The notes under the pieces: generated by a model
What the model was told of the DNA's origin: nothing
Seen by the model: only the letters and a program-made list of their open reading frames with translations
Databases searched by the model: none
Made by a program: the position numbers and the translations under genes
Part shown: in pieces, positions 43,701-56,004 of the stretch
Position numbering within the stretch: the stretch's first letter is position 1
Layout of the letters: each line of letters opens with the position of its first letter
DNA from: Dyella acidiphila
Lineage (GTDB): Bacteria > Pseudomonadota > Gammaproteobacteria > Xanthomonadales > Rhodanobacteraceae
Direction: 5' to 3'
Assembly (NCBI RefSeq): GCF_014863405.1
Contig: NZ_JACZZA010000008.1
Span: 62,001-126,000 of the forward strand
Length of the DNA: 64,000 nucleotides

Positions 43701-43856
43701 CAGCTGATTGAGCTGGGCCAGCGCCTGCACCGTGGTGTGATTGGCCTGGGCGATGCTTTCCAGCGAATCGCCGGCTTTCACCTGATAGGTGGCGGGCTTG
43801 GGTGCGGGTTGCTGCGGCGGGGTGTAGCTGCCGCCTCCAATGGCGTAGATGGTCAT
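40701..43856 (-). CDS. Giant LysM-domain protein, candidate T3SS-associated secreted protein
   Basis: A 1051-aa protein with no Sec or Tat signal. A LysM domain occupies about residues 23-70 (YQVKAGDSLESIAQANHTTV), normally a peptidoglycan or glycan binder. The rest is rich in Ala, Ser, Gln and Asn, mostly helical, with hydrophobic stretches late in the protein (MTKSLALTLSTFGLL; FLDPIAGALMWGSSLISVGQLFF). It looks unlike house-keeping LysM enzymes; no catalytic domain is visible. A TAGGG-N5-CCT operator-like site lies 126 bp upstream, shared with T3SS genes. A type III substrate is inferred from context, composition and absence of another export signal. The start MTIYAIGGGSYTPPQQ follows a GGAGTTCC-like SD region. 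Confidence 0.65.
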   Translation of the reverse strand: MTIYAIGGGSYTPPQQPAPKPATYQVKAGDSLESIAQANHTTVQALAQLNQLDLDHPHAVVIRPGQELQLPAPSDDSDTAASDPVVQALNNYEQVATSTRNSEYIAAHSGNNPGDPGLQLNLDQAQTKLNQALEFQAAANQRAGAAPDANEINSLVQHYGALASFANNGSAQTGLNQAASTLNAPQATSVDQIFSQVSAPSADNSNLGTRENQFANALAGQPPDVVAAVRNDPRYQPLLNQFVDATVSSSANLPPQGSGTGAVANWENQAQQNLSDLADMVNGRPGLYNGLPPSIAADIVKLPQTQQLISNVLTSTLPPGAQAGAAGQQQLQTWLGRNFQSMSRIADSLGSNTPAATQFTQQTAQQIVGALQAANVPPSAYSQYLNLTAELGAPPTDINTQASPALAIAIAQQVQAGGDSKDAQGIINDVCSAVNNVATSSGSYTTSVTQALSDYQSKTADLNWLVSNFGANASQQQLNTAVQNYINQQGPAWQSAYKQDQITLQNSGQFLANDITQLENLPPGLKSSQVDSTLKSLAGNSSVQQALGFALQRNPTAVLGTDGSQANALLQFLGTAKTLGGGVTGGSSLAGAIAQTYMQTQYQPQLLASLSGLTPGTPQFSQAVRNSLESFVQQHPTMASLTGINEENITKLSQLFQPGAAGEDMEATVTGNLKQFASNAQPMTKSLALTLSTFGLLKDSITAYNSPSAGNVFSACCDALGLSKSVAGTVFNNASPSNPFLKSIAAFGDGSNAMGQLTGKLLNSVGLITNLQSLGSDLSGGNTVGTVSVGMNLAASGLKSDTVESALMALGARGIITDSAASFLDPIAGALMWGSSLISVGQLFFSGGAHPPSITTQQSFLKDLGYGGLSQNAQWDLLAQTSNNPSLSTPGSSPLMLLTKYAQDKGYNLQNADQRNAFVNWVNQLAATPDANALSGAHTINGQTPNQLDSLVQNLNAELDYSKGNISNFAATNAASDQNFNQAMSQTGRFSDVANLGGVDGVQDNAYAVGNNDHVITVAPRSGDIGVIAPQSAYQIDQLLKVIGADQLPAA

Positions 43857-43982
43857 GGCGGAACTCCTCGGTGTACTGGCCATGCCTGGCCAGCGGCGCA
43901 CGTAGCAATCGAGTGGGGTGACGGCGATGGGGATCGCCCGTGTTCGACACAGCATGAGCATCGGCCGCGCGCGTGCGTGCAG

Positions 43983-44004
43983 CAATTAGGGTTTTCCCTG
44001 GGGC
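43983..44004. promoter_or_regulatory. T3SS-region operator-like palindrome, site 1 (LysM gene)
   Basis: Carries TAGGG-N5-CCTGG in the same register as four other sites in the T3SS region. It lies 126 bp upstream of the LysM protein start on the minus strand, in the divergent region shared with the 44251 gene. Confidence 0.55.
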
Positions 44005-44053
44005 CGTGGCGAAATGTTGCGATCGCAAGAACATCGCTTGCGGGCATGGGGAA

Positions 44054-44081
44054 AACCCTAGCCTAGGGTTCGGCCTAGTTG
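44054..44081. promoter_or_regulatory. T3SS-region operator-like palindrome, site 2 (filament-like gene 44251)
   Basis: Contains CCTAGGG-N5-CCTAGTT in register with the other sites (44060-44081), and overlapping it a perfect palindrome AACCCTAG-C-CTAGGGTT (44054-44070). It lies 170 bp upstream of the 44251 start. Confidence 0.6.
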
Positions 44082-44250
44082 GCCTGCGGCAGGCGGCTTT
44101 TGATACTTCGCCAAGGTCTGGCAGCTCTGGACCGCCTTACTACCGATCTTCATCAGTGCTGGATGTGTCGCAGGCAGGGAGGCCAGGCGCGGATCCGACG
44201 CAGCACGATCGGTCGATTTGCGACTCCCCATCCTTGCAGAGGGCAAAACC

Positions 44251-44637
44251 ATGACTGTCTCCCCCATCTACGCTTCATCCGTCAATACGCTTGCCAGCGC
44301 CGGCATGACTCGTGCGGAAGCCACCGAAGTGGTGCGCAACGCGCTGAGCAATTTCCAGCAAGACGCATCCGAGCCGCTGATCAATATGCTGATGAACAGC
44401 AGTAGCAGCGGCGGTTCGGGCGGCTGGCTGGAAGCGCTGGCCAAGGCGCTCGGCGACAAGTTGAACCAGGCGGCCAACACGCTCAAGACCAATGCCGGCA
44501 ACGTCAACTCGGACGATCCGGGCCAGACCACCCAGCTGAGTGCGGAAGCGGAAGAATTCAGCCAGATGATGGATGCCTTCAACAACATCATCAAGACGCT
44601 GGGCCAGTCGCTCGATACGATGGTGCAGAAGCAGTAA
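44251..44637 (+). CDS. Small secreted filament-like protein, paralogue of 59485 gene
   Basis: A 128-aa protein without a Sec signal. A Ser/Gly-rich stretch is followed by GGWLEALAKALGDKLNQAAN and a helical C-terminus, EEFSQMMDAFNNIIKTLGQS, ending MVQKQ. The WxEALAKAxG segment and the terminal GQxLxTxxQKQ match the protein encoded at 59485-59880 inside the sct operon, so the two are paralogues. The Ser-rich head, helical tail and lack of cysteine fit extracellular T3SS filament, needle or EspA/SseB-like proteins. Which of these it is cannot be settled by eye. It is preceded by a putative operator. Confidence 0.65.
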   Translation: MTVSPIYASSVNTLASAGMTRAEATEVVRNALSNFQQDASEPLINMLMNSSSSGGSGGWLEALAKALGDKLNQAANTLKTNAGNVNSDDPGQTTQLSAEAEEFSQMMDAFNNIIKTLGQSLDTMVQKQ

Positions 44638-44715
44638 TCACGCCATGTGAATCCAGGGGCCGGGATACTGCGCGTATCCCGGCTTTCTTTTTATGTGCTG
44701 ATGGACTCGCATCCC

Positions 44716-45387
44716 ATGTTTACTTTGCGCGGTTGGGTATTCCTGTTGGCCGCCGGCCTGTTGTTGCCGCTGCATGCGCAGGCGGCAGGCCTGGGCAGCA
44801 GCGATATGGAAGGTGTGTGCCTGGTGAAGGCTTTCAGGATCGGCGTAGGCGGCATGCGCCTGCCGACCTGGCGCCCGTATCTGTTGTTGAAGGACGGCAG
44901 CGCTTATGAGAATCCCAAGCTGGCGCCGGAGCTGATCGACCCGGTGCAATCGCGCGAGAGCGAAGCGCGCCGCTGGGGCAGCTGGACAGCACAGGGCGGC
45001 GACAAGGCGCTGAGCATGCCGGGCCGCAATCCGATGGTGAGCGCGCAATGCCTGCCGCCGGCGGCCGCGGGTATGAGCCTGCAGGGTAGCTACAAGCATG
45101 TGGGTGGCGGCGGTACGGCGATTGCCGGCGGGCATGCCTCGTTTATGCGCAGCAATACGTATCAGTTTTCGCCGGATGGCAGCTTCAGCTACAGCGGCAG
45201 CGGCGGGCTGATCTCGCCGGGCGCTTCGACCACCGCCAACAGCGCGCGCAGCGGTCATTACCAGGTTCACGACTACGCAATCGACCTGCGCTACGACGAC
45301 GGCAGTCAGGCACAGCTGTTCTTTTACGCCGATGGCGGCAAGCTGCTGCATATCGGCGACGAGGATTACGTGCCGGCGGCGGAATGA
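44716..45387 (+). CDS. Secreted hypothetical protein with lipocalin-like C-terminal half
   Basis: About 223 residues with a signal peptide (MFTLRGWVFLLAAGLLLPLH, cleavage after AQA). The mature protein has a C-terminal half reading LQGSYKHVGGGG, NTYQFSPDGSFSYSGSGG, RSGHYQVHDYAIDLRYDDGS and AQLFFYADGGKLLHIGDEDY, a regular beta pattern seen in lipocalin-like or envelope proteins. Function unknown. An ATG 15 bp upstream (44701) would add a less typical N-terminus; no clear RBS distinguishes them. It follows the filament-like gene by 78 bp. Confidence 0.65.
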   Translation: MFTLRGWVFLLAAGLLLPLHAQAAGLGSSDMEGVCLVKAFRIGVGGMRLPTWRPYLLLKDGSAYENPKLAPELIDPVQSRESEARRWGSWTAQGGDKALSMPGRNPMVSAQCLPPAAAGMSLQGSYKHVGGGGTAIAGGHASFMRSNTYQFSPDGSFSYSGSGGLISPGASTTANSARSGHYQVHDYAIDLRYDDGSQAQLFFYADGGKLLHIGDEDYVPAAE

Positions 45388-45390
45388 GCT

Positions 45391-45412
45391 TTCCTAGGGA
45401 AATTCCCAGCTA
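45391..45412. promoter_or_regulatory. T3SS-region operator-like palindrome, site 3 (acetyltransferase)
   Basis: CCTAGGG-N5-CCCAG in register with the other sites, and GGGAAATTCCC forms a strong internal palindrome. It lies 52 bp upstream of the acetyltransferase start. It is the most degenerate of the five sites on the right side. Confidence 0.45.
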
Positions 45413-45464
45413 GGCGCGGCGCCTGCTTGCAGGCGTAATGCACGGCAAGGAGAACGGGACTGTC

Positions 45465-46094
45465 ATGGCGCCTGATCCATTCCAGAGCGAGCCGTCGTTG
45501 GGGTCTGCCGAGAGCTTTCGCAGCGCTGCGGATGGCCGCGTGCGTCGTGCGGTGCCAGGGCTGGTGGTGGCGCAGTCGCGACGGATGCGGCTGTTGCCGC
45601 TCGACTACGACGATATTCCCCAACTCAGCGGGCTGTTCGCGCAGACCAGCGCGTATCCCTTGCTGATGGACAGCCCCACGCGTTTTATCGACGTGGCCGC
45701 GATCGTGGCCTGTGTGCATCGCCTGTATGCCGGTGCGCGCGGGCTCGGTGCGTGGCGTGCGGAGGCGCTGGACGGCACGTTTGTCGGCTTGCTGTCGCTG
45801 CTGCCGGTGCAGGGTAGCGACGATCTGGAAATTCATGTGCGGCTGAAGCCGGAGGCGTGGGGGCGCTGGTATGCGATCGAAGGCACGCATCTGCTGTGTC
45901 GGCAGGCGTTCGACGTAGTGGGCGTGCCGCGCTTGCTGGGCTATTGCCATCCGGAACATCGGCGCGTGCGGCGGATTGCCTTGCGCCTTGGGTTTCGCGA
46001 TCTGGGGCTGTGCGAGCATCGGCGGCAGCTGGCGCAGTGCTATGCGCTGGATGTGGCGACGTGGCGGGAGCGTAGTGCCGCAGTGGCGCACTAG
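45465..46094 (+). CDS. GNAT-family N-acetyltransferase
   Basis: A 209-aa acetyltransferase of the RimJ/RimL-like GNAT type. After a variable N-terminus comes MRLLPLDYDDIPQLSGLFAQT, then FVGLLSLLPVQGSDDLEIHV, GRWYAIEGTHLLCRQAFDVV and HRRVRRIALRLGFRDLGLCE, where the last matches the terminal GNAT motif. It presumably acetylates an amino group of a protein or small molecule with acetyl-CoA; substrate unknown. The start at 45465 follows AAGGAG at 12-nt spacing; another ATG at 45438 precedes that SD. It lies in the T3SS region behind an operator-like site, which raises the possibility that it modifies a T3SS component. Confidence 0.8.
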   Translation: MAPDPFQSEPSLGSAESFRSAADGRVRRAVPGLVVAQSRRMRLLPLDYDDIPQLSGLFAQTSAYPLLMDSPTRFIDVAAIVACVHRLYAGARGLGAWRAEALDGTFVGLLSLLPVQGSDDLEIHVRLKPEAWGRWYAIEGTHLLCRQAFDVVGVPRLLGYCHPEHRRVRRIALRLGFRDLGLCEHRRQLAQCYALDVATWRERSAAVAH

Positions 46095-46124
46095 CGTTCG
46101 CACATAGGTCGCACTTAGCAACAC

Positions 46125-46154
46125 GTAGGTTGGGTTAGCGCAGCGTAACCCAAC
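46125..46154. repeat. Palindromic dispersed repeat, copy 4
   Basis: Same 30-bp core as the copies at 1493 and 39729. Forms an inverted pair with copy 5 at 22-bp spacing. Confidence 0.8.
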
Positions 46155-46176
46155 GAATTCGCTACGAAGCGGCATC

Positions 46177-46206
46177 GTTGGGTTACGCTGCGCTAACCCA
46201 ACCTAC
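46177..46206. repeat. Palindromic dispersed repeat, copy 5 (inverted)
   Basis: Inverse of copy 4. The pair has the same geometry as copies 2 and 3, with 22 bp between units here against 26 bp there. Confidence 0.8.
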
Positions 46207-46261
46207 GGTCTACGGTCGAGAGTGGGTTAGTAACGCAACGATCTTTCTTCGTAACGACATC

Positions 46262-46303
46262 GTTGGGTTACCCCCGGATCAAGTCCGGGGTAACCCAACC
46301 TAC
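46262..46303. repeat. Palindromic dispersed repeat, variant copy 6
   Basis: Keeps the arms GTTGGGTTA and TAACCCAACCTAC but the core is replaced by CCCCCGGATCAAGTCCGGGG, itself a hairpin. It lies just downstream of the 46318-46959 gene on the minus strand and may terminate it. Confidence 0.7.
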
Positions 46304-46317
46304 GGTCGTGGGGTGGG

Positions 46318-46959
46318 TTAGAGTTGGTGGACGACCCAGCCTGGCGGCATTGGCGTAACGGCCGCAGTGCCGCGAATGGCTGCCTGTACAACGTCATCCG
46401 GCGTGCTGCCGGCCTGCCGCCAGCGTTGCGCGAGGCGGCCGAGAATATCGCGCGTTTCGCGCGTATAAGTGCCTTCCAGTTCGCTGCCGACTTCCGCCTC
46501 AAGCTTGCCGGCATAGTGCGCACGCAGCTGCGGATTGAGTTCGAACAGCGCCAGCAGTTTGCGCATGGCGTCGGCGTAGAGGGCCTTGTCGAGCATCGGC
46601 CGCTGCGTTTGCTGGCAGTACCACACGGTGAGGTATTCGATCGGGCCAAGCAGGCGGCGGCGTTGCACGGAGCCGTAGGAACTGCCCCATGCGCTCAGTT
46701 GTCCGGCCGGCAGATCCATGCGTTGTGCCGCTGCGGCGAGCAGGTCGGCCACGCATTGCTTGGCGGCGGCGTCTTCGCTCTCGGCGACGATCAGCAGCAT
46801 CTTCAGGAATACCGGATACGCCTCATCGCCCAACTGGCGCACGATGCGCTTGGCCAGCGCCAGGCGCAGTTCGGTCGAGGGCTCTTGTTGCAGGGCATGC
46901 ACCAACCGCCGCGTGGTTTCCAGCAGCGGTTCGGCTAAGGATTGCAGCTGGGCGGACAT
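46318..46959 (-). CDS. Hypothetical helical protein of the T3SS cluster, 213 aa
   Basis: A soluble, almost wholly helical protein (LAEPLLETTRRLVHALQQEP; ADLLAAAAQRMDLPAG; RRRLLGPIEYLTVWYCQQTQ) with no signal peptide and no family I recognise. It lies 10 bp behind the 46970-47248 gene on the same strand, so the two form a small operon that starts next to an operator-like site shared with sctU. A cytosolic accessory role in secretion, such as a chaperone or sorting factor, is a contextual guess. Not similar by eye to SctW, SctK or SctP. Confidence 0.6.
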   Translation of the reverse strand: MSAQLQSLAEPLLETTRRLVHALQQEPSTELRLALAKRIVRQLGDEAYPVFLKMLLIVAESEDAAAKQCVADLLAAAAQRMDLPAGQLSAWGSSYGSVQRRRLLGPIEYLTVWYCQQTQRPMLDKALYADAMRKLLALFELNPQLRAHYAGKLEAEVGSELEGTYTRETRDILGRLAQRWRQAGSTPDDVVQAAIRGTAAVTPMPPGWVVHQL

Positions 46960-46969
46960 GCCTGCTGCA

Positions 46970-47248
46970 TCAGCCTAGCGGCGCGAGGATGTGATGAGCG
47001 AGTTGATCAAGCTGAACCGTGGAGGGCGCGTTGAGTGCGGCGGGCGTGCCCAGCACGCGCTCGGCAGCACCGGTGTTGCCCCACACATCCAGCTCCAGCA
47101 ATTGATTGCCGGTGGCCGCATGCAGCTGGGCCGATACGCTCCGGCCTGCTGCCTGGACCGCGCCCGCCTCGGCTCCCGCAGGAGGCAGCAGGCGCGATGG
47201 AAGCTCGCTAAGGTTCATGGCGCTTAGATTGGATTCGATGCGTGTCAC
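46970..47248 (-). CDS. Hypothetical small protein of the T3SS cluster, 92 aa
   Basis: A small protein beginning MTRIESNLSAMNLSELPSRL, Ala/Gly-rich, with LHAATGNQLLELDVWGN mid-protein. The GTG start at 47248 is chosen because AGGAG stands 10 nt upstream; the internal ATG at 47218 has no such signal. No family recognised. It is transcribed divergently from sctU and its start lies only 27 bp from operator-like site 4. The unstructured, small-residue N-terminus would suit a secreted substrate, which is speculative. Confidence 0.55.
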   Translation of the reverse strand: MTRIESNLSAMNLSELPSRLLPPAGAEAGAVQAAGRSVSAQLHAATGNQLLELDVWGNTGAAERVLGTPAALNAPSTVQLDQLAHHILAPLG

Positions 47249-47275
47249 CAGTGTAGGTCTCCTGCGCGGCCGCGG

Positions 47276-47297
47276 TAGCTGGGGGATTCCCTAGGTG
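47276..47297. promoter_or_regulatory. T3SS-region operator-like palindrome, site 4 (sctU / 47248 divergent)
   Basis: CTGGGGG-ATT-CCCTAGG in register with site 5; 16 of 22 positions agree by eye. It lies in the 156-bp divergent region, 107 bp before sctU and 27 bp before the minus-strand orphan gene. Confidence 0.6.
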
Positions 47298-47404
47298 GCG
47301 GCTGCCGGTGGCGCGTCGCACACTTCTATGCGTTGGTTCGCCGGGAAACGCAAAAAGCTTGCGTTGCGTTGACCCGAAGCTGAATAACGCACGGCGGGTG
47401 ACAG

Positions 47405-48478
47405 ATGGCGGGGCAGAACAAGGACAGCGGCGATCGCACCGAAAAACCGACTGCCAAGCGGCTGCGCGATGCGCGCAAGGACGGTGACGTCCACAAAAGC
47501 CGCGAGCTGACCAGCACCGCCTTGGTGCTGGCGTGGCTGCTGATGGTGATGATGGGCATGCCGCTGATCCGCGCGCGGCTGGATGGCTTGTTCGACACCA
47601 TCATGCAAGGCATGCAGCAGCCCTTCGACCAGGCTTTGCACAATATCGGCTGGGCCGCCGGCATCACGTTTCTATGGCTTACCGTGCCGCTGCTGCTGGG
47701 CGCGATGGCGTTCGGCGTGCTGGTGGAATTTCTGCAGGTGGGGCCGGTGTTCGCGCCCAAGAAGATCAAGCCCGATCTCAGCCGCATGAATCCGGCCGAA
47801 GGCATCAAGCGGCTGTTCTCGCAGGAGAACCTGGTTGAGCTGGTCAAGGCGGTGGTGAAAAGCAGTTTGTTGATCGGCTTGTTCGCGTGGGTGCTGTTTG
47901 CGCTGATCGGCCAGTTGGTGGATTTGCCTTACGCGCCGCCGGCAGCGATGGGCGAAGCTTTGTGGATTGCGGTGAAGCGCCTGGCGACCGGCGTGATTTT
48001 CGTGTTTTTCTTTGTCTCGGCGCTGGATGTGTTTTACCAGCGCTACGCCTTCAACAAGAAAATGAAAATGAGCCGGCGCGAGATCAAGCAGGAGCTGAAG
48101 GAGAACGAAGGCGATCCGATGATCAAGTCGCGCCGCCGCCAACTGCATCAGGAGTGGTCGCAGCAGAACACCCTGGCCGGCGTGCGCAAGGCCAGCGTGG
48201 TGGTGACCAATCCCACCCATCTGGCGATTGCGATTCGCTACCAGCAGGGCGAGGACGATCTGCCGGTGATCGTGGCCAAGGGCGAGGATCACGAAGCGGC
48301 GCTGATCCGCCAGGCGGCGGAAGAGGCGGGCGTGCCGATCATGCGCAATGTGACGCTGGCGCGCGGCCTGTACGAAAAGGTGGAAGTGGACGAGTACCTG
48401 CCGGGCGACTTCTTCGAGGCAGTGGCGGAGTTGCTGCGCTGGGCCGAATCGATCCGCGAATCGCGCGACGGTAAATAA
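47405..48478 (+). CDS. sctU: T3SS export apparatus switch protein SctU
   Basis: The FlhB/YscU-family export gate component that switches substrate specificity. The 357-aa protein begins DSGDRTEKPTAKRLRDARKDG, has four membrane spans (about residues 38-55, 85-112, 150-172, 195-210) and a cytoplasmic domain with the autocleavage motif NPTH at residues 269-272 (VVVTNPTHLAIAIRY). A flagellar FlhB was considered, but all linked genes are injectisome components. It is transcribed alone, convergent with sctT (4 bp between stops), downstream of operator-like site 4. Confidence 0.96.
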   Translation: MAGQNKDSGDRTEKPTAKRLRDARKDGDVHKSRELTSTALVLAWLLMVMMGMPLIRARLDGLFDTIMQGMQQPFDQALHNIGWAAGITFLWLTVPLLLGAMAFGVLVEFLQVGPVFAPKKIKPDLSRMNPAEGIKRLFSQENLVELVKAVVKSSLLIGLFAWVLFALIGQLVDLPYAPPAAMGEALWIAVKRLATGVIFVFFFVSALDVFYQRYAFNKKMKMSRREIKQELKENEGDPMIKSRRRQLHQEWSQQNTLAGVRKASVVVTNPTHLAIAIRYQQGEDDLPVIVAKGEDHEAALIRQAAEEAGVPIMRNVTLARGLYEKVEVDEYLPGDFFEAVAELLRWAESIRESRDGK

Positions 48479-48482
48479 GTAT

Positions 48483-49286
48483 TTACAGAATGCGCTTGAG
48501 CTCGCTCAGCAGATCGCGATTTTCATACAGCTTGCGCATCACCATCTCGATCATCGCGCCCAGCGCCAGCAGCAGCACCCAGCTGGACAGCCACGATTTG
48601 ATCGGCATCGCCAGGGCGAACACATTCAATTGCTGCGCATAGCGATTGACCAGGCCCAGCGCGATATCCACCAGCGACATCACCACCAGCGCCGGCGCCG
48701 AAAACACCAGCACGGCGGTCATCAGGTAATTGAATTGCCCGACGAAGAATTCCATGCCGCCGGGTTTGAGCGGCGGCAGCATGCTGGCGACCGGCCAGAT
48801 CACGTAGCTGGACATCAGCAGATCCAGAAACACCATGAAGGCGCCGCTGACCATAAATAGCCAGGTCGCCACCTGCATGAGGAAGACGCTGGTGATGGTG
48901 CTTTGCTCGCCGGCGACCGGATCCATTTCCATCGCCATCGATGCGCCGGCCTTGGTGTCCATTACGCTGCCGGCCGCGCCCAGCGCCCAGAACACCGTGC
49001 CGAAGCAGAAGCCGATCAGCAGCCCGACGAAAATCTCCTTGCCCAGCACCAGGGTCCAACTGGCGCCGGCCATGATGGTGGTGCTGGGACTGGCTGCCGC
49101 GGCCAGCGGATAGACCAGGATCGCCAGGCTGACATAGAAGCTGTTGCGCACCAGCGCCGGCACGGTGTCCGAGGTCATCAGCGGCAGCACCAGGAAGGCG
49201 GCGACGATGCGCGGCAAGGTCAGCGCCACGCCATTGAGCTGGTTGCCGAGATATTCGATCGACAACGGGGCCATCGGCGCCGGCAT
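48483..49286 (-). CDS. sctT: T3SS export apparatus protein SctT
   Basis: The FliR/YscT-family export gate subunit, 267 aa, with about six membrane helices (VALTLPRIVAAFLVLPLM; FVGLLIGFCFGTVFWALGAA; FLMQVATWLFMVSGAFMVFL; LVFSAPALVVMSLVDIALGL). The SctT pattern MDTKAGASMAMEMDPVAGEQ is clear. The ATG shares its A with the sctS stop (TGATG), which shows the real start and translational coupling; the open frame upstream of it is meaningless. It ends 4 bp from convergent sctU. Confidence 0.96.
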   Translation of the reverse strand: MPAPMAPLSIEYLGNQLNGVALTLPRIVAAFLVLPLMTSDTVPALVRNSFYVSLAILVYPLAAAASPSTTIMAGASWTLVLGKEIFVGLLIGFCFGTVFWALGAAGSVMDTKAGASMAMEMDPVAGEQSTITSVFLMQVATWLFMVSGAFMVFLDLLMSSYVIWPVASMLPPLKPGGMEFFVGQFNYLMTAVLVFSAPALVVMSLVDIALGLVNRYAQQLNVFALAMPIKSWLSSWVLLLALGAMIEMVMRKLYENRDLLSELKRIL

Positions 49287-49552
49287 CAACTGAGCATGCC
49301 CGGAAAATCGCTGAACAAGCGATCGGCGAATTTGAACAAGGTGCCGCCGAGCATCGCCGCGGTGCCGAGCAAGGCAATCACTACCACCATGAATTTCACC
49401 GCATACGGAAAGGTCTGCTCCTGGATCTGCGTGGCGGCCTGCAGAAACGCCACGATCAGGCCGGCGATCGCGGCAGCCAGGATCGGCGGCGCGGACAAGG
49501 CCAGCACCAGCCACAGGGCTTCGCGCGCAAGCTGGATTTCCTGGTCGTACAT
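49286..49552 (-). CDS. sctS: T3SS export apparatus protein SctS
   Basis: The FliQ/YscS-family subunit, 88 aa with two membrane helices (ALWLVLALSAPPILAAAIAG; FMVVVIALLGTAAMLGGTLF) and the family motif VAFLQAATQIQEQTFPYAVKF between them. It forms the export gate with SctR and SctT. It lies 9 bp after sctR and overlaps sctT by one base. Confidence 0.97.
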   Translation of the reverse strand: MYDQEIQLAREALWLVLALSAPPILAAAIAGLIVAFLQAATQIQEQTFPYAVKFMVVVIALLGTAAMLGGTLFKFADRLFSDFPGMLS

Positions 49553-49561
49553 GCGCTGCTC

Positions 49562-50227
49562 CTATTGGTAGGTGAGCACCAGGCCGTGCACCAGCTTGGC
49601 CCAGCCGCTGAGCAGGATGAACAGCAACAGCTTGAACGGCAGCGACACCATGGTGGGCGACAACATCATCATGCCCATTGCCAGCAGGATATTGGCCACC
49701 ACCAGGTCGATCACCAGAAACGGCAGGAACAGCAGAAAGCCGATCTGGAAGGCCTGGGTGAGTTCGCTCACGGTGAAGGCCGGCATGATCACGATGTAGT
49801 CGTTCGGCGTGAGATCCGCCTGCCGGTCCGGCGGCAGCAGCCGCTTGGCGCTTTGCAGGAAGAAATCGCGCTCGGTGGCATGGCTGTGCTTGATCAGGAA
49901 TTGCCGCAGCGGTTCCTTGCCGGCCTGCACCACCGCGCTGAGCTTGTCCATGGTCATGGGCCCCGGCGCCTGTGTACTCATTTGCGTCTGCACGCTGGAG
50001 TAGGTGTCCATGATCACCGGGTTCATCACGTACACCGACAAGATGATCGCCAATCCGTTGAGCACCACGTTCGGCGGCACCTGCTGCAAGCCCAGCGCAT
50101 TGCGCAGCAAGCTCAGCACCACCACGATCTTGGTGAAGGACGTGACCATCACCGCCACGAACGGCGCCATCGCCAGTGCGACGACAACGGTGATGATCAG
50201 GGCAGGCGAGAAGCTACTGAAATCCAC
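49562..50227 (-). CDS. sctR: T3SS export apparatus protein SctR
   Basis: The FliP/YscR-family core of the export gate, 221 aa, with four membrane helices. Signatures are VVLSLLRNALGLQQVPPNVV, DYIVIMPAFTVSELTQAFQI and the C-terminal GMMMLSPTMVSLPFKLLLFI. In flagella FliP needs FliO for stable assembly; a FliO-like gene lies about 3 kb away in this cluster. Gene order sctQ-R-S-T is the usual one. It starts 11 bp after the sctQ stop. Confidence 0.97.
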   Translation of the reverse strand: MDFSSFSPALIITVVVALAMAPFVAVMVTSFTKIVVVLSLLRNALGLQQVPPNVVLNGLAIILSVYVMNPVIMDTYSSVQTQMSTQAPGPMTMDKLSAVVQAGKEPLRQFLIKHSHATERDFFLQSAKRLLPPDRQADLTPNDYIVIMPAFTVSELTQAFQIGFLLFLPFLVIDLVVANILLAMGMMMLSPTMVSLPFKLLLFILLSGWAKLVHGLVLTYQ

Positions 50228-50238
50228 GGATCGCGTCC

Positions 50239-51228
50239 TTAGTGTGGGGCGTCATCGCCGATGCGTACGCCCAGCCACGAGCCCAGCGCCACCAGCACGC
50301 CGCTGCCGATGCATGCGCCGCCGAGCAGAATCTCGACCGGGTTGCCGAGCAGGGTGGTGTCGTAGCTCAGCATGCTGCCCGGCTTGAGCGCTTCCACTTG
50401 GTGCGGGCTCAGTGTGAGCCGGGCCAGGCGACAGTGCGGACGCTGTGCATCCACGCTGCTGGCCAGCAGCGGCCTGGCGGCGATCATCCATTGCCCGTGC
50501 CGGCGCTGCACGGTCCAGCCGGCGGGCAGACCGAACATGCAGCGTGCGGTGTGCGGATCCGGCTGCAACAGCGCTTCGCCTTCGGCGCCGTCGCCGAGCA
50601 GCAGCACGTCGCCGGTATGCAAGGCCGCGACTGCTGCCGGTGTGAGCGGACGTCCCTGCAGCAGCAATTCCAGGCCCAGTTCGGTGGCATCGCCGAGCAG
50701 GGAGAGCGTGGAGGGATCGCGCTTCCATGCTGTGCAGGCGGCCAGCAGGCAGGTTTCGGCCACGCCCAGTCCGAGCCAGCCTTGCAGCGACTGGCCGGCG
50801 TCGTCCTGCCAGTCAAGCTTCAGCCACAGGCAGGCGAGATCCGCGCCAGCGGCGAAAAAACGGGTGGCGACATAGCCGCCGCCGAACACACGGCCCAGCG
50901 CATCCAACAGCGGCTCGTGCGCCAGCGACCAGGCGAGCAGGCGCGCTTCGCCTACGTAGTCCTGCCATTGCGCATCGCCGAGTGGCGCGTTGAGCTGCTC
51001 GCGTTCCAGCGCGATCAGCAGGCGGCCCTGCGCGCTGTCCAACTGTACGCAGGCGAGCGTAGCGGCATGGCGCTGGCCGACGCCTGCGCGCAGGCTCAGT
51101 GCGCCGCACTCGTTTTGCAGCAGCAGATTGCCGCGCGTGAGCAAGGCGCGGGCGGCTTCGCTGAGCGCGTCCGCGGTGTCGCCGCTGGCTGGGGTGTGAT
51201 CCATGATGATGGCCGTTTCGCGCAGCAT
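50239..51228 (-). CDS. sctQ: T3SS cytoplasmic sorting platform (C-ring) protein SctQ
   Basis: A FliN/YscQ-type protein of 329 aa. The N-terminal two thirds are poorly conserved (ALLTRGNLLLQNECGALSL); the C-terminal ~75 residues form a SpoA domain (LKPGSMLSYDTTLLGNPVEI followed by LLGGACIGSGVLVALGSWLGVRI). It builds the pods that recruit SctK, SctL and SctN. The ATG at 51228 directly abuts the stop of the FixJ-like regulator; the ATG at 51204 (MDHTPASG) is an alternative. Assignment rests on the SpoA domain and position before sctR. Confidence 0.9.
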   Translation of the reverse strand: MLRETAIIMDHTPASGDTADALSEAARALLTRGNLLLQNECGALSLRAGVGQRHAATLACVQLDSAQGRLLIALEREQLNAPLGDAQWQDYVGEARLLAWSLAHEPLLDALGRVFGGGYVATRFFAAGADLACLWLKLDWQDDAGQSLQGWLGLGVAETCLLAACTAWKRDPSTLSLLGDATELGLELLLQGRPLTPAAVAALHTGDVLLLGDGAEGEALLQPDPHTARCMFGLPAGWTVQRRHGQWMIAARPLLASSVDAQRPHCRLARLTLSPHQVEALKPGSMLSYDTTLLGNPVEILLGGACIGSGVLVALGSWLGVRIGDDAPH

Positions 51229-51828
51229 CTAGTTCTGGCCCAGTACCACGCGGGTCAGCTCCACCACGTTGTGGGCGCCCAGCTTGGCCATCAGGTTGGA
51301 GCGATGCAGCTCCACGGTTTTCGGGCTGATGCTGAGTTCGTCGGCAATGACCTTGTTGAGCTTGCCGCTCATGATGCCGTCCAGCACCTGCCGCTCGCGG
51401 CGGGTCAGGCTGGCCAGCGCGGTGGACGCGGTTTGCGGGGCGTGATGGGCCAGTGCGGTCTGGATCGCGTCGATCAGCAGCGGCGCATCGAACGGCTTCT
51501 CGATGAAATTGGCCGCGCCGTGGCGCATCGCATCCACCGCCAGCGGGACATCGCCGTGGCCGGTGACGAAGATCAGCGGTATCGACAGCCCGCGATGTAC
51601 CAGCTCGGTCTGCAATTCCAGGCCGCTCATGCCGGGCATGCGGATATCGCTGACGATGCAGCAGCGCGCCGGCGGCGCCTCGCGCGCCAGTTCTTTCAAC
51701 AGCGCGAGCGCGTTGGGAAAATCGCGTACCTGGAAATTGGCCTGCTCCAGGATCCAGATGCAGGATTGGCGGAACTCCTGGTGGTCGTCGACCAGATAGA
51801 CGCGGCTGTCGAGCGTGGCCGTCATCAA
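51229..51828 (-). CDS. FixJ-family response regulator in the sctQRST operon
   Basis: A 199-aa FixJ/NarL-type regulator: receiver with phosphoacceptor D61 in VSDIRMPGMSGLELQ, TGHGDVPLAVDAM and KPFDAPLLIDAI, then a LuxR-type HTH (LTRRERQVLDGIMSGKLNKV; SPKTVELHRSNLMAKLGAHN). Its start overlaps the end of the kinase gene and its stop touches sctQ, so kinase, regulator and sctQRST form one unit. This recalls HrpX/HrpY, the sensor-regulator pair of Erwinia/Pantoea T3SS. It is the prime candidate to bind the palindromes upstream of other T3SS genes, unproven. Confidence 0.92.
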   Translation of the reverse strand: MMTATLDSRVYLVDDHQEFRQSCIWILEQANFQVRDFPNALALLKELAREAPPARCCIVSDIRMPGMSGLELQTELVHRGLSIPLIFVTGHGDVPLAVDAMRHGAANFIEKPFDAPLLIDAIQTALAHHAPQTASTALASLTRRERQVLDGIMSGKLNKVIADELSISPKTVELHRSNLMAKLGAHNVVELTRVVLGQN

Positions 51829-52922
51829 GCCAGTCCTCGCGGCACGGTGAATATCAGTGCCGCGCCCGGGGCGTTATCGGGATTGGGTTCGGCGAACAGG
51901 CGGCCTTCGTGGTATTCGACGATGGAGCGGCAGATGGCCAGGCCGATGCCCAGGCCGTCGGGCTTGGTGGTGTACATCGGCGTAAACAACTGCTGCATGC
52001 CGTTGGCATCGATGCCGCAGCCCTGGTCGCTGACGCGGATCTCCACCATGCCGTCGTAATCCAGCCGCGCCGCGATATGGATGCGCCGGCGCGCCGGTGG
52101 CGTTTCGTGCATGGCTTCCATCGCGTTTTTGATCAGGTTGAGCAGCACCTGCTCGATCATCACGCGGTCGGCAAAGATCGGCGGCAACTGCTCGGCCACG
52201 TCGCTGACGATGCTCACCTGGTATTGCTCGGTCTCCAGCCGCAGCAGCTCGATCACGTCCTGGATCAGCTGGCGTGCATCGAGATTGCGCCGGTGCGGTT
52301 CGCGGCTGCGCACGAATTCACGGATGCTGCCGATGATCTGCGCGGCGCGTTCGGTCTGGCGCTTGGCCAGGTGGATGCCCTGGCGCAGGCGACTGTCCTG
52401 CGCTTCGCCGTCGACGATCTGCTCGCAGCCGGCCAGATAATTGATCGCGGCCGACAGCGGCTGGTTCAACTCATGCGCCAGCGTGGTGGCCATTTCGCCC
52501 ACGCTCATGGTGCGCGAGGTGGATAACAGCTGTTCGTGCTGCGCTCGGTGACGGCGCAGCACTTCGATGCATTCGCTGATATTGATCAGGAACAGCGCAT
52601 CGGCGCGATCGCCGAGCGGCAGCTCGCTGTGTTCCATGCGATACCAACGGCGCGTATCCGGTGCGTAGTAGATCGGCGAGCCGCCCTGGCCGCCGGTGGC
52701 CTCGAACATACGTTCGAACGCCTGGCGCGATGCAACCGCGCCGTGCTGTGGAAATTCCGCGCGGAATGCGGCATTGCACGTCAGCATGCTATCAGGCTCG
52801 CGCTGGAACACGATGCACGGCCACGGCAACGCTTCGATCAGCGCATGGCCCTGTGCTTGCGCCGCGGATGCAATGCCGACGGGGTTTTGTTTGCGGTCGA
52901 TTCGCGCCACAGGCATGGTCAC
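51825..52922 (-). CDS. Cytoplasmic PAS sensor histidine kinase in the T3SS cluster
   Basis: A 365-aa kinase with no membrane span. Residues ~25-120 form a PAS-like domain (IEALPWPCIVFQREPDSMLT; WYRMEHSELPL), the phosphoacceptor is H150 in MATTLAHELNQPLSAAINYL (FixL/NtrB/DctB type) and the HATPase has NLIKNAMEAM, VSDQGCGID and GLGIGLAICRSIVEYHEGR. It is first in the operon with the FixJ-like regulator. A soluble PAS sensor suggests an intracellular redox or metabolite cue; no haem ligand is evident. The start at 52922 or the ATG two codons later (52916) are both possible. Confidence 0.92.
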   Translation of the reverse strand: MTMPVARIDRKQNPVGIASAAQAQGHALIEALPWPCIVFQREPDSMLTCNAAFRAEFPQHGAVASRQAFERMFEATGGQGGSPIYYAPDTRRWYRMEHSELPLGDRADALFLINISECIEVLRRHRAQHEQLLSTSRTMSVGEMATTLAHELNQPLSAAINYLAGCEQIVDGEAQDSRLRQGIHLAKRQTERAAQIIGSIREFVRSREPHRRNLDARQLIQDVIELLRLETEQYQVSIVSDVAEQLPPIFADRVMIEQVLLNLIKNAMEAMHETPPARRRIHIAARLDYDGMVEIRVSDQGCGIDANGMQQLFTPMYTTKPDGLGIGLAICRSIVEYHEGRLFAEPNPDNAPGAALIFTVPRGLA

Positions 52923-52947
52923 CTATCCTTGAACAAGCTGGCGGCCG

Positions 52948-52970
52948 AATCCGGCTTGCGCCGGAATGAC
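52948..52970. repeat. REP-like unit between the kinase and FliO-like genes
   Basis: AATCCGGCTTGCGCCGGAAT followed by GAC, related to the units at 21556 and 36749. The remaining part of the 299-bp divergent region (52923-53221) should hold both promoters; the palindromic T3SS motif was not found in it. Confidence 0.55.
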
Positions 52971-53221
52971 AGCAGCTATCTGACATACGCAAGACCCGCC
53001 ATAACCCCACGCCGTGCGCCCGATTGGCGCACGAACAATAACAATGGCGGATCAGCAGAAGCCTAAGCCATCTAACTTGGTTTGTTTAAGTACCAATTAG
53101 CTTTGATTGGGCGGTACCAGTGAAGCGGAGGGAATAACGCTTCGGCTGGATTGGCGAACAGCTCGCGGTGCTATGTTTCGTGCCGACGAATCATCAAGCT
53201 GTCTTCATCAGGATGCGGATA

Positions 53222-53566
53222 ATGCCCATGAAAAAAATACTATGCAATGTGCTTGTCAGCCTAGCTTGGCCAGGCGCTGCATTCGCTGCCGACACAACAG
53301 AACGCAGTAGTTTGCTAATAGGACTGCTGGTGCCGCTGCTTGCGGTATCGGCATGTCTGCTGGCGATGTTGTGGTGGTTAAAGCGCGGAAAAACCCTTGG
53401 CGGAAGCGGTCCGGTGAAGCTGGTGCAGGCCGTTGCAGTCGGTGCGCGCGAGCGCGTTGTGGTGCTCGATGCGCAGGGCCGGCGGCTATTGATCGGCGTA
53501 ACGTCCAACAAAATCGAGCTGCTGGCTGAATTGCATGCAATCGATACATCGCCACCAGGCGGATGA
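53222..53566 (+). CDS. FliO-family protein inside the T3SS cluster
   Basis: A 114-aa membrane protein whose C-terminal domain, KLVQAVAVGARERVVVLDAQ then GRRLLIGVTSNKIELLAEL (residues ~66-104), matches flagellar FliO in spacing and key residues (VGxxERVVVxxxxxRxLxxGVTxxxIxLL). The N-terminus has a signal-like hydrophobic segment (ILCNVLVSLAWPGAAFA) and a membrane span (LLIGLLVPLLAVSACLLAML). In flagella FliO helps assemble the FliP ring; injectisomes usually lack it. The start at 53222 follows AGGA at 8-nt spacing; 53228 is an alternative. It lies between the two main sct operons, 374 bp before sctV. Confidence 0.8.
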   Translation: MPMKKILCNVLVSLAWPGAAFAADTTERSSLLIGLLVPLLAVSACLLAMLWWLKRGKTLGGSGPVKLVQAVAVGARERVVVLDAQGRRLLIGVTSNKIELLAELHAIDTSPPGG

Positions 53567-53940
53567 ATTTTTCGTGATGGACGCGACGAAAATCACGTTG
53601 AGCGTGCGAGGAGGCGCGCAATTTTAAAAGTTACTGTCGATACTTTTTTATATTCATTTTGCTGAATGTCGAACCTAGGGTCTCCCCTAGGTTTCGGTTT
53701 TTATAAACGCTGGTAGGTTCGCTTTTACCGATTGCCGACAGGGGGCATCGGCCATGCGTATCGCAATATGGAACGTTGGCGACGGCAAGAAGACATGGAG
53801 TGGCGCACGCCGCTCTGCTTCGCGTTTGTACTGCCGGAGTCGTGCGTGTTGGCCACCTGCGTTTCACTTCGCATTGACATCAGCGCGTCGCGGCAGTGGC
53901 GAGCGCGTCGTATGCGTTATGCCGACAGGACCAGCACGTA
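53567..53940. other. Intergenic region upstream of sctV, 374 bp
   Basis: Contains operator-like site 5 (53672-53693) in an AT-richer stretch (about 53630-53720), probably the promoter zone of the sctV operon, leaving a leader of roughly 200 bp. Short open frames in the leader show no coding character. Confidence 0.55.
53672..53693. promoter_or_regulatory. T3SS-region operator-like palindrome, site 5 (sctV operon)
   Basis: A perfect inverted repeat, AACCTAGGG-TCTC-CCCTAGGTT, 247 bp upstream of the sctV ATG. It is the best-formed of five sites that share TRGGG-N5-CCYRG in the same register. Without a T-run it is not a terminator. Confidence 0.65.
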
Positions 53941-56004
53941 ATGGCGCTCGAGTCGATTCTTTCGCGGCTTGGCTCCACGGGCAGGTCGCGCAGCTATAGC
54001 GACCTGGTGTTGGTCGCCGGGGTGGTGGCGATCATCGGCCTGATGATCCTGCCGCTGCCGATGGTAGGCATCGATGCGCTGGTCGCCTTGAACATGCTGA
54101 TCGGCGTGGGGCTGCTGCTGGTCGCCATCTATATTCCCGCGCCGGTGGCATTCTCCAGTTTCCCCAGCGTGCTGCTGCTGACCACGCTGTTCCGCCTGGC
54201 GCTGTCGATCGCGATTACCCGCTCGATTCTGCTCAATGCCGATGGCGGCCGCATCATCGATACCTTCGGCAACCTGGTGGTCGGCGGCAATTTGATTGTC
54301 GGCCTGGTTGTATTCCTGATCATCACCGTGGTGCAGTTCATCGTGGTGGCCAAGGGCGCCGAGCGCGTCGCCGAAGTAGCGGCGCGTTTCTCGCTGGATG
54401 CGATGCCGGGCAAGCAGTTGTCGATCGATTCGGACCTGCGCTCGGGCCTGCTGGAAAAAGACGAGGCACGCCGTCGGCGCCGCCTGCTGGAAGTGGAAAG
54501 CCAGCTGCACGGCTCGCTCGATGGCGCAATGAAGTTCGTCAAGGGCGATGCTATCGCCGGCATGGTGATCATCATCATCAATTTGCTGGGCGGCCTGGGC
54601 GTGGGTGTGCTGATGCACGACATGAGCCTGGACGATGCGATGCATACGTATAGCGTGCTGACCATCGGCGACGGGCTGGTGGCGCAGATCCCGGCCTTGC
54701 TGGCTTCAATTTCCGCCGGCCTGATCGTGACGCGTACCGCCGGTGACGAGGAGGATCGCAATCTCGGCGCGATTATCGCCAGGCAGATTTCCAACGAGCC
54801 GCGGGTGATGATGATCGTGGGCTGCATTGCGCTGGGCATGATGCTGGTGCCGGGCTTTCCGGCGCTGGTGTTTCTGCCGATCGGTGCATTGATGGTGGGC
54901 GTGGCCTCGTGGCGCATGCGCGAGCGGGTGGGCTTGTTGCGCAAGGTGTTCAAGGTGCCTGAGAGCCAGGCCGAGCTGCTGCCGCCGGATGTGGCCGATA
55001 CCGATGCGCTGCTGCCGCCGCCGGCGTTGCTGCTGGAAGTGAACATGTCCGCGCTGCAGGCGCTGGGTAGTGCCCAGGTGCGCAATCTGTTTCGCCAGGT
55101 GGTAGGTGGCTTGCGCGAGGAATATGGCGTACCGCTGCCCAAGCCGGCCTTGCGTGCCGGACTGAACCTGCCCGAGCAAGGCTATGCGCTGTACGCCTAC
55201 GGTGTGCGCATCGGTTTCGGCGTGCTGCAGTCCGAGGCGGTGTTCTTGCCGGGGCGTGCGGCCTTGCCCGCACAGACCCAGGGCGAGGGCGCGCTGGTGA
55301 AGGAAGGCAGCAGCAATTTCCCGGGACGTTGGGTGGCGCGCGACGGCAATCACGCGGCGCGTGCACTGGAGCCGCCGGAGATGCTGCGCGAACATATCCG
55401 GCTGGCGCTGGAACGGCATCTGTCGCTGTTCGTCGGCATCCAGGAAACGTCCAATCTCTCCAACGGCCTGAGCCGCGATTACCCGGACCTGGTGCGCGAG
55501 ATGCTGCGCGTGGTGTCGCCGCAGCGCGTGGCCGACGTGCTGAAGCGGCTGGTGGAAGAACGCGTGCCGATCCGCCAGCTGCGCGATGTGTTCGAGGCGA
55601 TTACCGACGCCGCCAGCCGCGAGAAAGACATCGTGCTGGTGGCCGAGCATGTGCGCATGTCGCTGCGCCGGCATATCAGCTACCGCTACGCCGACGACGA
55701 GCATGTGCTGCGCGTGCTGGTCGCGCGCCCCGAACTGGAAGAACGCCTGCGCCGCTCGGTGCACAACGGCCCGGCCGGTGCGCAGTTGGCGGTGGAGCCG
55801 GAACTGGCTGCGCGCCTGCTGGCGCAGATCGGCGATCACGCCGGCGGCGAGCATGGCGCGGCCTTCGTGATGCTCAGTTCCACCGACGTGCGCCGTCACC
55901 TGCGCAAGCTGACGGAAGCCGAATACGCCGACATACCCGTGCTCTCTTATCAGGAACTGGTGCCGGACCTGCGTCTGGTGCCGGTCGGACAACTGGCGGC
56001 GTGA
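53941..56004 (+). CDS. sctV: T3SS major export apparatus protein SctV
   Basis: The FlhA/YscV-family export gate, 687 aa. The N-terminal half has about eight membrane spans, the FHIPEP-type block FSSFPSVLLLTTLFRLALSI and the FlhA signature RFSLDAMPGKQLSIDSDLRS followed by DEARRRRRLLEVESQLHGS. The cytoplasmic C-terminal half (~360-687) forms the nonameric ring that docks chaperone-substrate complexes. The ATG at 53941 gives MALESILSRLG; AGGA is 12 nt upstream. First gene of the plus-strand sctV-C-D-I-J-K-L-N-O operon; sctC follows 30 bp later. Confidence 0.97.
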   Translation: MALESILSRLGSTGRSRSYSDLVLVAGVVAIIGLMILPLPMVGIDALVALNMLIGVGLLLVAIYIPAPVAFSSFPSVLLLTTLFRLALSIAITRSILLNADGGRIIDTFGNLVVGGNLIVGLVVFLIITVVQFIVVAKGAERVAEVAARFSLDAMPGKQLSIDSDLRSGLLEKDEARRRRRLLEVESQLHGSLDGAMKFVKGDAIAGMVIIIINLLGGLGVGVLMHDMSLDDAMHTYSVLTIGDGLVAQIPALLASISAGLIVTRTAGDEEDRNLGAIIARQISNEPRVMMIVGCIALGMMLVPGFPALVFLPIGALMVGVASWRMRERVGLLRKVFKVPESQAELLPPDVADTDALLPPPALLLEVNMSALQALGSAQVRNLFRQVVGGLREEYGVPLPKPALRAGLNLPEQGYALYAYGVRIGFGVLQSEAVFLPGRAALPAQTQGEGALVKEGSSNFPGRWVARDGNHAARALEPPEMLREHIRLALERHLSLFVGIQETSNLSNGLSRDYPDLVREMLRVVSPQRVADVLKRLVEERVPIRQLRDVFEAITDAASREKDIVLVAEHVRMSLRRHISYRYADDEHVLRVLVARPELEERLRRSVHNGPAGAQLAVEPELAARLLAQIGDHAGGEHGAAFVMLSSTDVRRHLRKLTEAEYADIPVLSYQELVPDLRLVPVGQLAA

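Follow-up and report, generated by a model that had tools for sequence, protein, structure and literature searches.

A 64,000-nucleotide stretch of Dyella acidiphila DNA (RefSeq assembly GCF_014863405.1, contig NZ_JACZZA010000008.1, positions 62,001 to 126,000; called the window below) holds type III secretion system (T3SS) genes and a palindromic box, CTAGGG-N4-CCCTAG, placed upstream of several of their transcription units. The box, its spacing to the promoter, its conservation and its co-distribution with the T3SS are established here by computation. Very probably, the box is the switch site of one regulator. We regard it as probably the site through which a T3SS regulon is activated, with the FixJ-type response regulator encoded at 51229 as the likely binder.

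An earlier note on this DNA proposed five sites with the core TRGGG-N5-CCYRG, and all five are found in a single register (43983-44004, 44060-44081, 45391-45412, 47276-47297 and 53672-53693). They lie, as claimed, upstream of a LysM protein gene, a filament-like gene, a GNAT gene, sctU with its divergent neighbor and the sctV operon. The list was incomplete, as a sixth site (44046-44061) stands in tandem with the one at 44063-44078. The proposed core is above chance in the window: eight strand-matches at six distinct places, all within 43986-53690, versus 1.04 expected, and none of 100 shuffles reached eight. Its spacer had to be revised. When CTAGGG-Nk-CCCTAG is scanned for k from 0 to 12 with up to two mismatches, k = 4 yields six places and every other value zero to two, and CTAGGG-N4-CCCTAG is thus the best description; the former N5 results from counting one C of the CCC into the spacer. 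The motif had also not been noticed in the core part of the window, and no copy with at most two mismatches occurs in positions 1-43985. What follows goes beyond that note in four points: the fixed distance to the -10, the use of the sctU box in both directions, boxes in tandem and regulon members unlinked to the cluster.

The box at 43986..44001 faces the minus strand (TTAGGGTTTTCCCTGG on the plus strand, two mismatches) and precedes the LysM protein gene (40701-43847, minus strand). Two boxes on the plus strand precede a needle/filament-like gene (44248..44637, plus strand; a weak T3SS_needle_F match, E 9e-4, under the Pfam cut-off): a distal one at 44046..44061 (ATGGGGAAAACCCTAG, two mismatches) and, 17 base pairs (bp) from it, a proximal one at 44063..44078 (CTAGGGTTCGGCCTAG, one mismatch). 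The box at 45394..45409 (plus strand, CTAGGGAAATTCCCAG, two mismatches) is followed by the GNAT acetyltransferase gene (Acetyltransf_3; 45465..46094 on the plus strand, with the start proposed here). Between sctU (47405..48478, plus strand) and the divergent gene 46970-47218, a single box at 47279..47294 is proposed to serve both directions. Finally, a box without mismatch (53675..53690, plus strand, CTAGGGTCTCCCCTAG) precedes sctV (53896..56004, plus strand), the first gene of the sctV-C-D-...-N operon. The tandem arrangement, with boxes 16-17 bp apart, recurs in the source genome (44046/44063 in the window; 6853/6869 on contig C25; 133083/133100 on C27, the contig of the window).

Since the motif was defined on the window sites, the independent tests are the source organism's whole genome and the genomes of its relatives. 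The letters of CTAGGG can be ordered in 120 ways; with N4 and at most two mismatches, CTAGGG itself occurs at six places in the window, the mean is 4.8 and several permutations reach 12-23. CTAGGG is not the commonest; the case is built on location, spacer, conservation and distribution instead of the raw count.

In the source genome (G000, 5.07 Mb), the box occurs at eight places with at most one mismatch. Three are in the window (C27 106063, 109279 and 115675) and three lie just past it (C27 133083, 133100 and 134168), where they precede a lipase-like gene, followed by the gene of a 1021-residue LysM protein, and an ankyrin-repeat gene. These six fall within 28 kb of C27, or 0.56% of the genome, for which P is about 8e-13 if places were even. 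The other two (C25 6853 and 6869) stand before an unlinked LysM-lysozyme-CHAP gene.

SctU of this type (at least 58% identity) is present in 15 of 233 genomes of Dyella's family, the first family below; the second family is that of the Luteimonas/Lysobacter-type loci. Genomes counted as 'without T3SS' were hand-picked (15 and 14, respectively) and lack SctU of this type, defined by that identity in the first family and by E 1e-90 in the second, so flagellar or other types may be present. In the first family, 125 sites with at most one mismatch are found in the 15 genomes with T3SS versus 17 in the 15 without (0-3 each; Mann-Whitney P 7e-6). Per T3SS genome the numbers are G000 8, G072 10, G070 7, G068 9, G089 5, G087 9, G085 14, G086 11, G088 10, G101 13, G232 8, G037 7, G209 7, G030 6 and G025 1. 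In the second family, 136 sites in 13 genomes with T3SS (3-18 each) compare with 6 in 14 without (0-1 each; P 4e-6). We also examined local stretches at 80 named loci encoding a relative of the regulator. The box, at no more than one mismatch, is present in 15 of the 22 with a T3SS (Dyella, Frateuria and Rudaea plus 19 of the Luteimonas/Lysobacter type) and in none of the other 58 stretches, which lack the T3SS and encode less closely related regulators (42-51%). The motif could have been equally frequent before unrelated genes genome-wide, as the earlier note considered; this is not observed, either in the source genome or in the two families.

Some of the matches are probably not regulon boxes. 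The conserved site CTAGGGTTTTCCTTAG is shared by five genomes without a T3SS of this type (G071, G074, G075, G078, G081) and by G085 and G086 (L127:4723, L128:4537, L057, L060-L062 and L064). We rejected it as a regulon box, as it has no -10 at the right distance, and it is probably an unrelated conserved element. Matches without a sensible downstream gene or -10 (for example at L134, L138, L140, L141 and L144) are probably due to chance.

The earlier note had named a lack of conservation at orthologous T3SS promoters as the result that would speak against it, and the box is conserved in two families. With at most two mismatches, the sctV box is present in 13 of the 15 first-family T3SS genomes and so is the sctU box, the latter missing from G037 and G030. 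The sctU box is also found in 13 of the 14 Luteimonas/Lysobacter-type loci with sctU in reach. It is kept where the regulator is unlinked: the distance between the two genes is 1.08 Mb in G471 (C1), and in G505 they lie on different contigs (C12 and C19). The site therefore answers to something acting in trans. The T3SS genes themselves seem to be split in these two genomes.

A -10-like hexamer follows the box at 24 or 25 bases at every boxed promoter of the window. The offset is 24 for the LysM gene (GATGCT, 43957..43962, minus strand), the needle/filament-like gene (GATACT, 44102..44107, plus strand), the divergent gene (TACACT, 47250..47255, minus strand) and sctV (TAGGTT, 53714..53719, plus strand). 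It is 25 toward sctU (CACACT, 47319..47324, plus strand) and for the GNAT gene, where the hexamer is weak (CGTAAT, 45434..45439, plus strand). If CGTAAT is a real -10, the GNAT gene would start at ATG 45465, behind AAGGAG, and not at 45438. Orthologous promoters of the first family show the pattern xAxxxT at the same distances. Toward sctU it stands at 25 in 11 of 13 promoters and, on the divergent side of that box, at 24 in 9 of 13; the needle/filament-like gene has it at 24 in 12 of 14 promoters, and sctV at 24 or 25 in 10 of 13 (14 ortholog rows were used for the needle/filament-like gene, leaving out that of G025, and ten for GNAT, leaving out that of G101). On the divergent side of the second-family sctU box, xAxxxT is found at 24 or 25 in 13 of 13. 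In the LysM-lysozyme genes, an extra degenerate box nearest the gene carries the spacing: TGGAAT, TGCAAT, TCCAAT or TGAAGT stands at 24 or 25 in seven of nine promoters, the exceptions being L119, which depends on the degenerate copy chosen, and L145:4325, which is ambiguous.

When similarity to TATAAT is scored at 57 offsets in eight promoter groups, the peak lies at 24/25 (3.41 versus 1.50, standard deviation 0.14, z 13), and this offset ranks first or second of 57 in each group; in the 'lysozyme' and 'other' groups a proximal degenerate box with up to five mismatches was allowed, which favors the result there and not in the other six. A held-out sample, 51 of the 136 second-family sites from seven genomes, gives the same answer for the better of the two sides (2.88 versus 1.91, standard deviation 0.15, z 6.5). 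Ten of these 51 match at least four of the six TATAAT letters at the right offset, whereas elsewhere such matches number 1.5 per offset on average and 5 at most. Seven of the 23 sites from genomes without T3SS show no -10 peak (rank 44 of 57), five of the seven being one conserved sequence. The fixed layout of box and promoter is unusually rigid and is new here.

Judged from the -10-like hexamers, the box center would lie about 44.5 bp before the expected transcription start, and the box itself at about -52 to -37, directly upstream of the -35 place. Repression, in which the box would be an operator on T3SS promoters and derepression would switch the system on, can be weighed at this point. 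Box position relative to the -10 alone is no proof of activation, which leaves room for a repressor. However, the box is located upstream of the expected -35, not over the -10 or the +1, and at the same distance in all promoter groups; in addition, FixJ-type regulators are mostly activators. We consider repression very unlikely.

The candidate binder is a FixJ-type response regulator (51229..51828, minus strand; Response_reg and GerE domains) encoded beside a histidine kinase (51825..52922, minus strand; HisKA and HATPase_c), its proposed partner. A regulator copy at least 55% identical is present in all 15 first-family T3SS genomes, while a relative is found in 4 of the 15 genomes without T3SS, none above 42%. 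The second family shows the same picture: the regulator is 53-57% identical in 13 of 13 T3SS genomes, and 3 of the 14 without T3SS have a relative, none above 44%. The motif KTVELHR of the presumed recognition helix is invariant across the 15 regulator orthologues. Among solved structures, the best full-length relatives are FixJ (5xso) and 1yio, which share with the 51229 protein the combination of a receiver with a LuxR-type helix-turn-helix (HTH). We take 1yio to be StyR. FixJ and StyR regulate nitrogen fixation and styrene catabolism, respectively, and not T3SSs. Among the T3SS-cluster genes scanned, no DNA-binding domain turned up besides that of the 51229 protein. Its being the only such regulator found there, its distribution and the geometry of the box support it as the putative binder, as the earlier note had guessed.

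Several observations weigh against the box as the activator site of this regulator. Searches for the sctV box came up empty in G025 and G209 and in all 19 Luteimonas/Lysobacter-type loci (best three to five mismatches in the latter). G025 has the T3SS and the regulator yet a single site at one mismatch or fewer, and seven of the 22 named T3SS loci lack a box at this threshold in the stretch examined. Many of the -10-like hexamers are poor (CGTAAT, TGCAAT), and only 4 of 10 GNAT promoters carry xAxxxT at offset 25. On the sctU side of the second-family box, the hexamer stands at 24/25 in only 1 of 13. In the eight-group test, the 'lysozyme' (9) and 'other' (12) groups were picked after the sequences had been inspected, a choice that likewise favors the result in these two. 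For the unit comprising kinase, regulator and sctQRST, the 300 bp before the kinase hold no box in any of the 15 genomes (best four to six mismatches), so part of the apparatus would lie outside the direct regulon; autoregulation of this operon through the box was rejected on the same ground. Furthermore, the regulator is distributed just as the kinase and the T3SS genes are, and co-occurrence cannot therefore single it out.

The window count with three mismatches allowed, which is at chance (15 versus 15.6 expected), together with the permuted half-sites that are commoner in the window and the fact that every site is a short inverted repeat, would suit a motif that is due to chance or a structural repeat, such as a terminator-like palindrome or one resembling repetitive extragenic palindromes (REP), without regulatory role. 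The concentration of sites genome-wide, their co-distribution with the T3SS, the promoter conservation and the fixed distance to the -10 contradict this explanation, to which we give next to no credence. More serious, if still unlikely, is the idea that the box is a real operator of the T3SS regulon bound by another regulator encoded elsewhere, of NarL/LuxR type or an unrelated dimeric protein, with the 51229 pair controlling that regulator or something else. The shared distribution, which makes linkage alone no proof, and the boxless operon of the regulator itself both leave space for such a protein. They are countered by the lack of a further DNA-binding domain among the cluster genes scanned and by the dyad of 6-4-6 (7-4-7 at sctV), which suits dimers with a LuxR-type HTH, as in SsrB; the absence of the box from the local stretches around the 58 distant regulators points the same way.

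Returning to activation by the 51229 protein, we infer binding and phosphorylation, along with the direction of control and the transcription start sites, from these sequence patterns. The regulator, phosphorylated with the kinase at 51825 as partner, would occupy the two half-sites as a dimer. The box would substitute for a good -35 element, in the position of a class II activator. Since the box is palindromic, one copy can serve both directions, and a single box may thus drive both flanking genes, as proposed at sctU. Where boxes stand in tandem, 16-17 bp apart, there would be room for a second dimer to bind.

The closest known case is the SsrA-SsrB pair of the Salmonella pathogenicity island 2 (SPI-2) and Sodalis SSR-3 systems, likewise a two-component pair encoded with a T3SS. 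In SPI-2, according to one study, SsrB recognizes an 18-bp 7-4-7 palindrome before T3SS operons and unlinked effector genes, without a strict distance between site and start and with two palindromes at ssrA-ssrB (PMC2837388). Three traits are shared: a NarL/FixJ-type regulator (receiver and LuxR-type HTH) is encoded beside its kinase inside the T3SS cluster, the site is a dyad with a 4-bp spacer (7-4-7 at sctV), and sites precede T3SS operons and unlinked candidate substrates, whose secretion is predicted. Two traits differ. Unlike SsrB, the system studied here has no site at the kinase-regulator operon, and the distance from box to -10-like hexamer is fixed at 24/25 whereas SsrB is reported to have no strict distance to the start. 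The half-site sequence presumably also differs from that of SsrB.

The HrpG/HrpX regulon of Xanthomonas and Ralstonia resembles the present one in having a common cis site, the plant-inducible-promoter (PIP) box, on T3SS operons and scattered effector genes, but the protein family differs and so does the motif. In the form TTCGB-N15-TTCGB, the PIP box is near chance in the window, with three matches versus 1.39 expected, none at box promoters. In other bacteria, T3SS regulons are marked by the hrp box of HrpL and by sigma-54 promoters. The hrp box GGAACC-N16-CCACNNA, taken at one spacing, has no match in the window with one mismatch allowed, and the sigma-54 promoter TGGCAC-N5-TTGCW has one versus four expected, away from the box promoters. 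None of these three elements accounts for the promoters studied here. Within the same part of the order, Lysobacter T3SS clusters are in print (PMC4657364), and a histidine kinase and a response regulator have been noted inside the cluster of L. antibioticus (PMC13163355, 2026); the accessible text of these two reports describes no binding site, regulon or -10 spacing. A full-text literature search, with subscription journals mostly outside its coverage, returned no description of the box or the regulon.

Two further features of the window deserve mention. A cluster of REP-like inverted repeats (GTAGGTTGGGTTA...TAACCCAACCTAC, seen by eye) occupies 46100-46330, between the GNAT gene and the gene at 46318. 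Between the kinase and sctV, 53228-53566 encodes a FliO-like protein (PF04347, E 4e-12) in the midst of a non-flagellar T3SS, and tblastn detects this gene in 13 of the 15 first-family T3SS genomes. FliO is usually regarded as flagellar.

The genes preceded by the box extend beyond the cluster. They include seven LysM-lysozyme proteins in six genomes (G000, G087, G088, G232, G209, G037), a LysM-muramidase (G087), lipase_3/Mbeg1-like proteins, a calpain-family protease (G086) and a DUF1521 protein (G088). Also preceded by a box are genes for a nuclease (G448), for a VanY-type peptidase (G472) and for a Peptidase_M91 protein (G498), as well as for several proteins that fall in no family. A good -10 at the right place is not universal among them, the calpain gene being one without. 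Lipase homologues number 20 in 16 genomes, and comparison of places puts a site with at most one mismatch shortly upstream of 14. A crude rule, applied to 38 chosen proteins whose genes follow a box, detects no Sec signal in any of them. We predict the box-preceded lipases, LysM-lysozymes, calpain-like protease and DUF1521 protein to be T3SS substrates.

In LysM proteins of 1009-1048 residues, several of them box-preceded, Pfam gives no accepted domain apart from a single LysM at the N-terminus, weak in L097 (window 40701-43847; L016:4561-7626; L102:14601-17684; L100:1795-4863; L097:1391-4420). In Luteimonas (L258, L262, L267, L272, L274, L277), several box-preceded proteins carry a tract of about 9-18 prolines inside the first 30 residues, which may perhaps be part of a secretion or chaperone region.

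In both families, a lipase with a GHSLGGG elbow is repeatedly followed, next to boxes, by an ankyrin-repeat protein with a Sec signal or lipobox (G085, G088, G101, G472, G448); in G000 the orthologous ankyrin gene adjoins the lipase and has its own box without mismatch, and in G471 the stretch ends inside a similar reading frame after the lipase. The pairs lie at L016:7690-10076, L110:6129-8000, L106:6021-7854, L112:8792-10624, L258:2077-3903 and L274:2297-4093, and the six ankyrin proteins are mutually 45-82% identical. Antibacterial phospholipases and their immunity proteins are arranged in this way. By this analogy, the lipase could be a periplasm-acting toxin and the ankyrin protein its immunity partner, and the box regulon could encode the arsenal of a contact-dependent antibacterial T3SS, directed in part against other bacteria and governed by its own two-component switch; we hold the two ideas jointly, as a doubtful possibility.

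Box-preceded peptidoglycan hydrolases (LysM-lysozyme, LysM-muramidase and VanY-type carboxypeptidase), the nuclease and the lipases without evident Sec signals, together with the recurring lipase-ankyrin pair, speak for an antibacterial role. The T6SS (type VI secretion system) sheath family VipA has no match in G472 and G448 and is lacking in 7 of 16 genomes, which speaks against a T6SS as lipase exporter in these two. On the other side, some cargo looks eukaryote-directed and signal peptides show no clear general excess: an open reading frame resembling a signal-peptide protein follows 12 of the 38 chosen genes (11 of 33 with 400 bases of room) versus 25% of controls (68/271; 220/874), and inspection by eye marks two or more of these 12 (nuclease, 298 residues) as false calls. 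A general association with immunity genes was rejected for this reason, and only the lipase-ankyrin pairing stands out.

The box regulon is real and new, whereas the kind of system is already known from SsrB. To date, the literature, as far as it is accessible, treats the T3SSs of soil Xanthomonadales (Dyella, Frateuria, Rudaea, Luteimonas, Lysobacter) as gene clusters only. A box with fixed promoter geometry gives these systems a candidate regulator and an operon map. Its copies at genes remote from the cluster allow candidate substrates to be listed from sequence, without an expression study. Besides eukaryote-like enzymes, this list has others that would attack the walls, the membranes or the nucleic acids of cells, which makes the purpose of these T3SSs directly testable.

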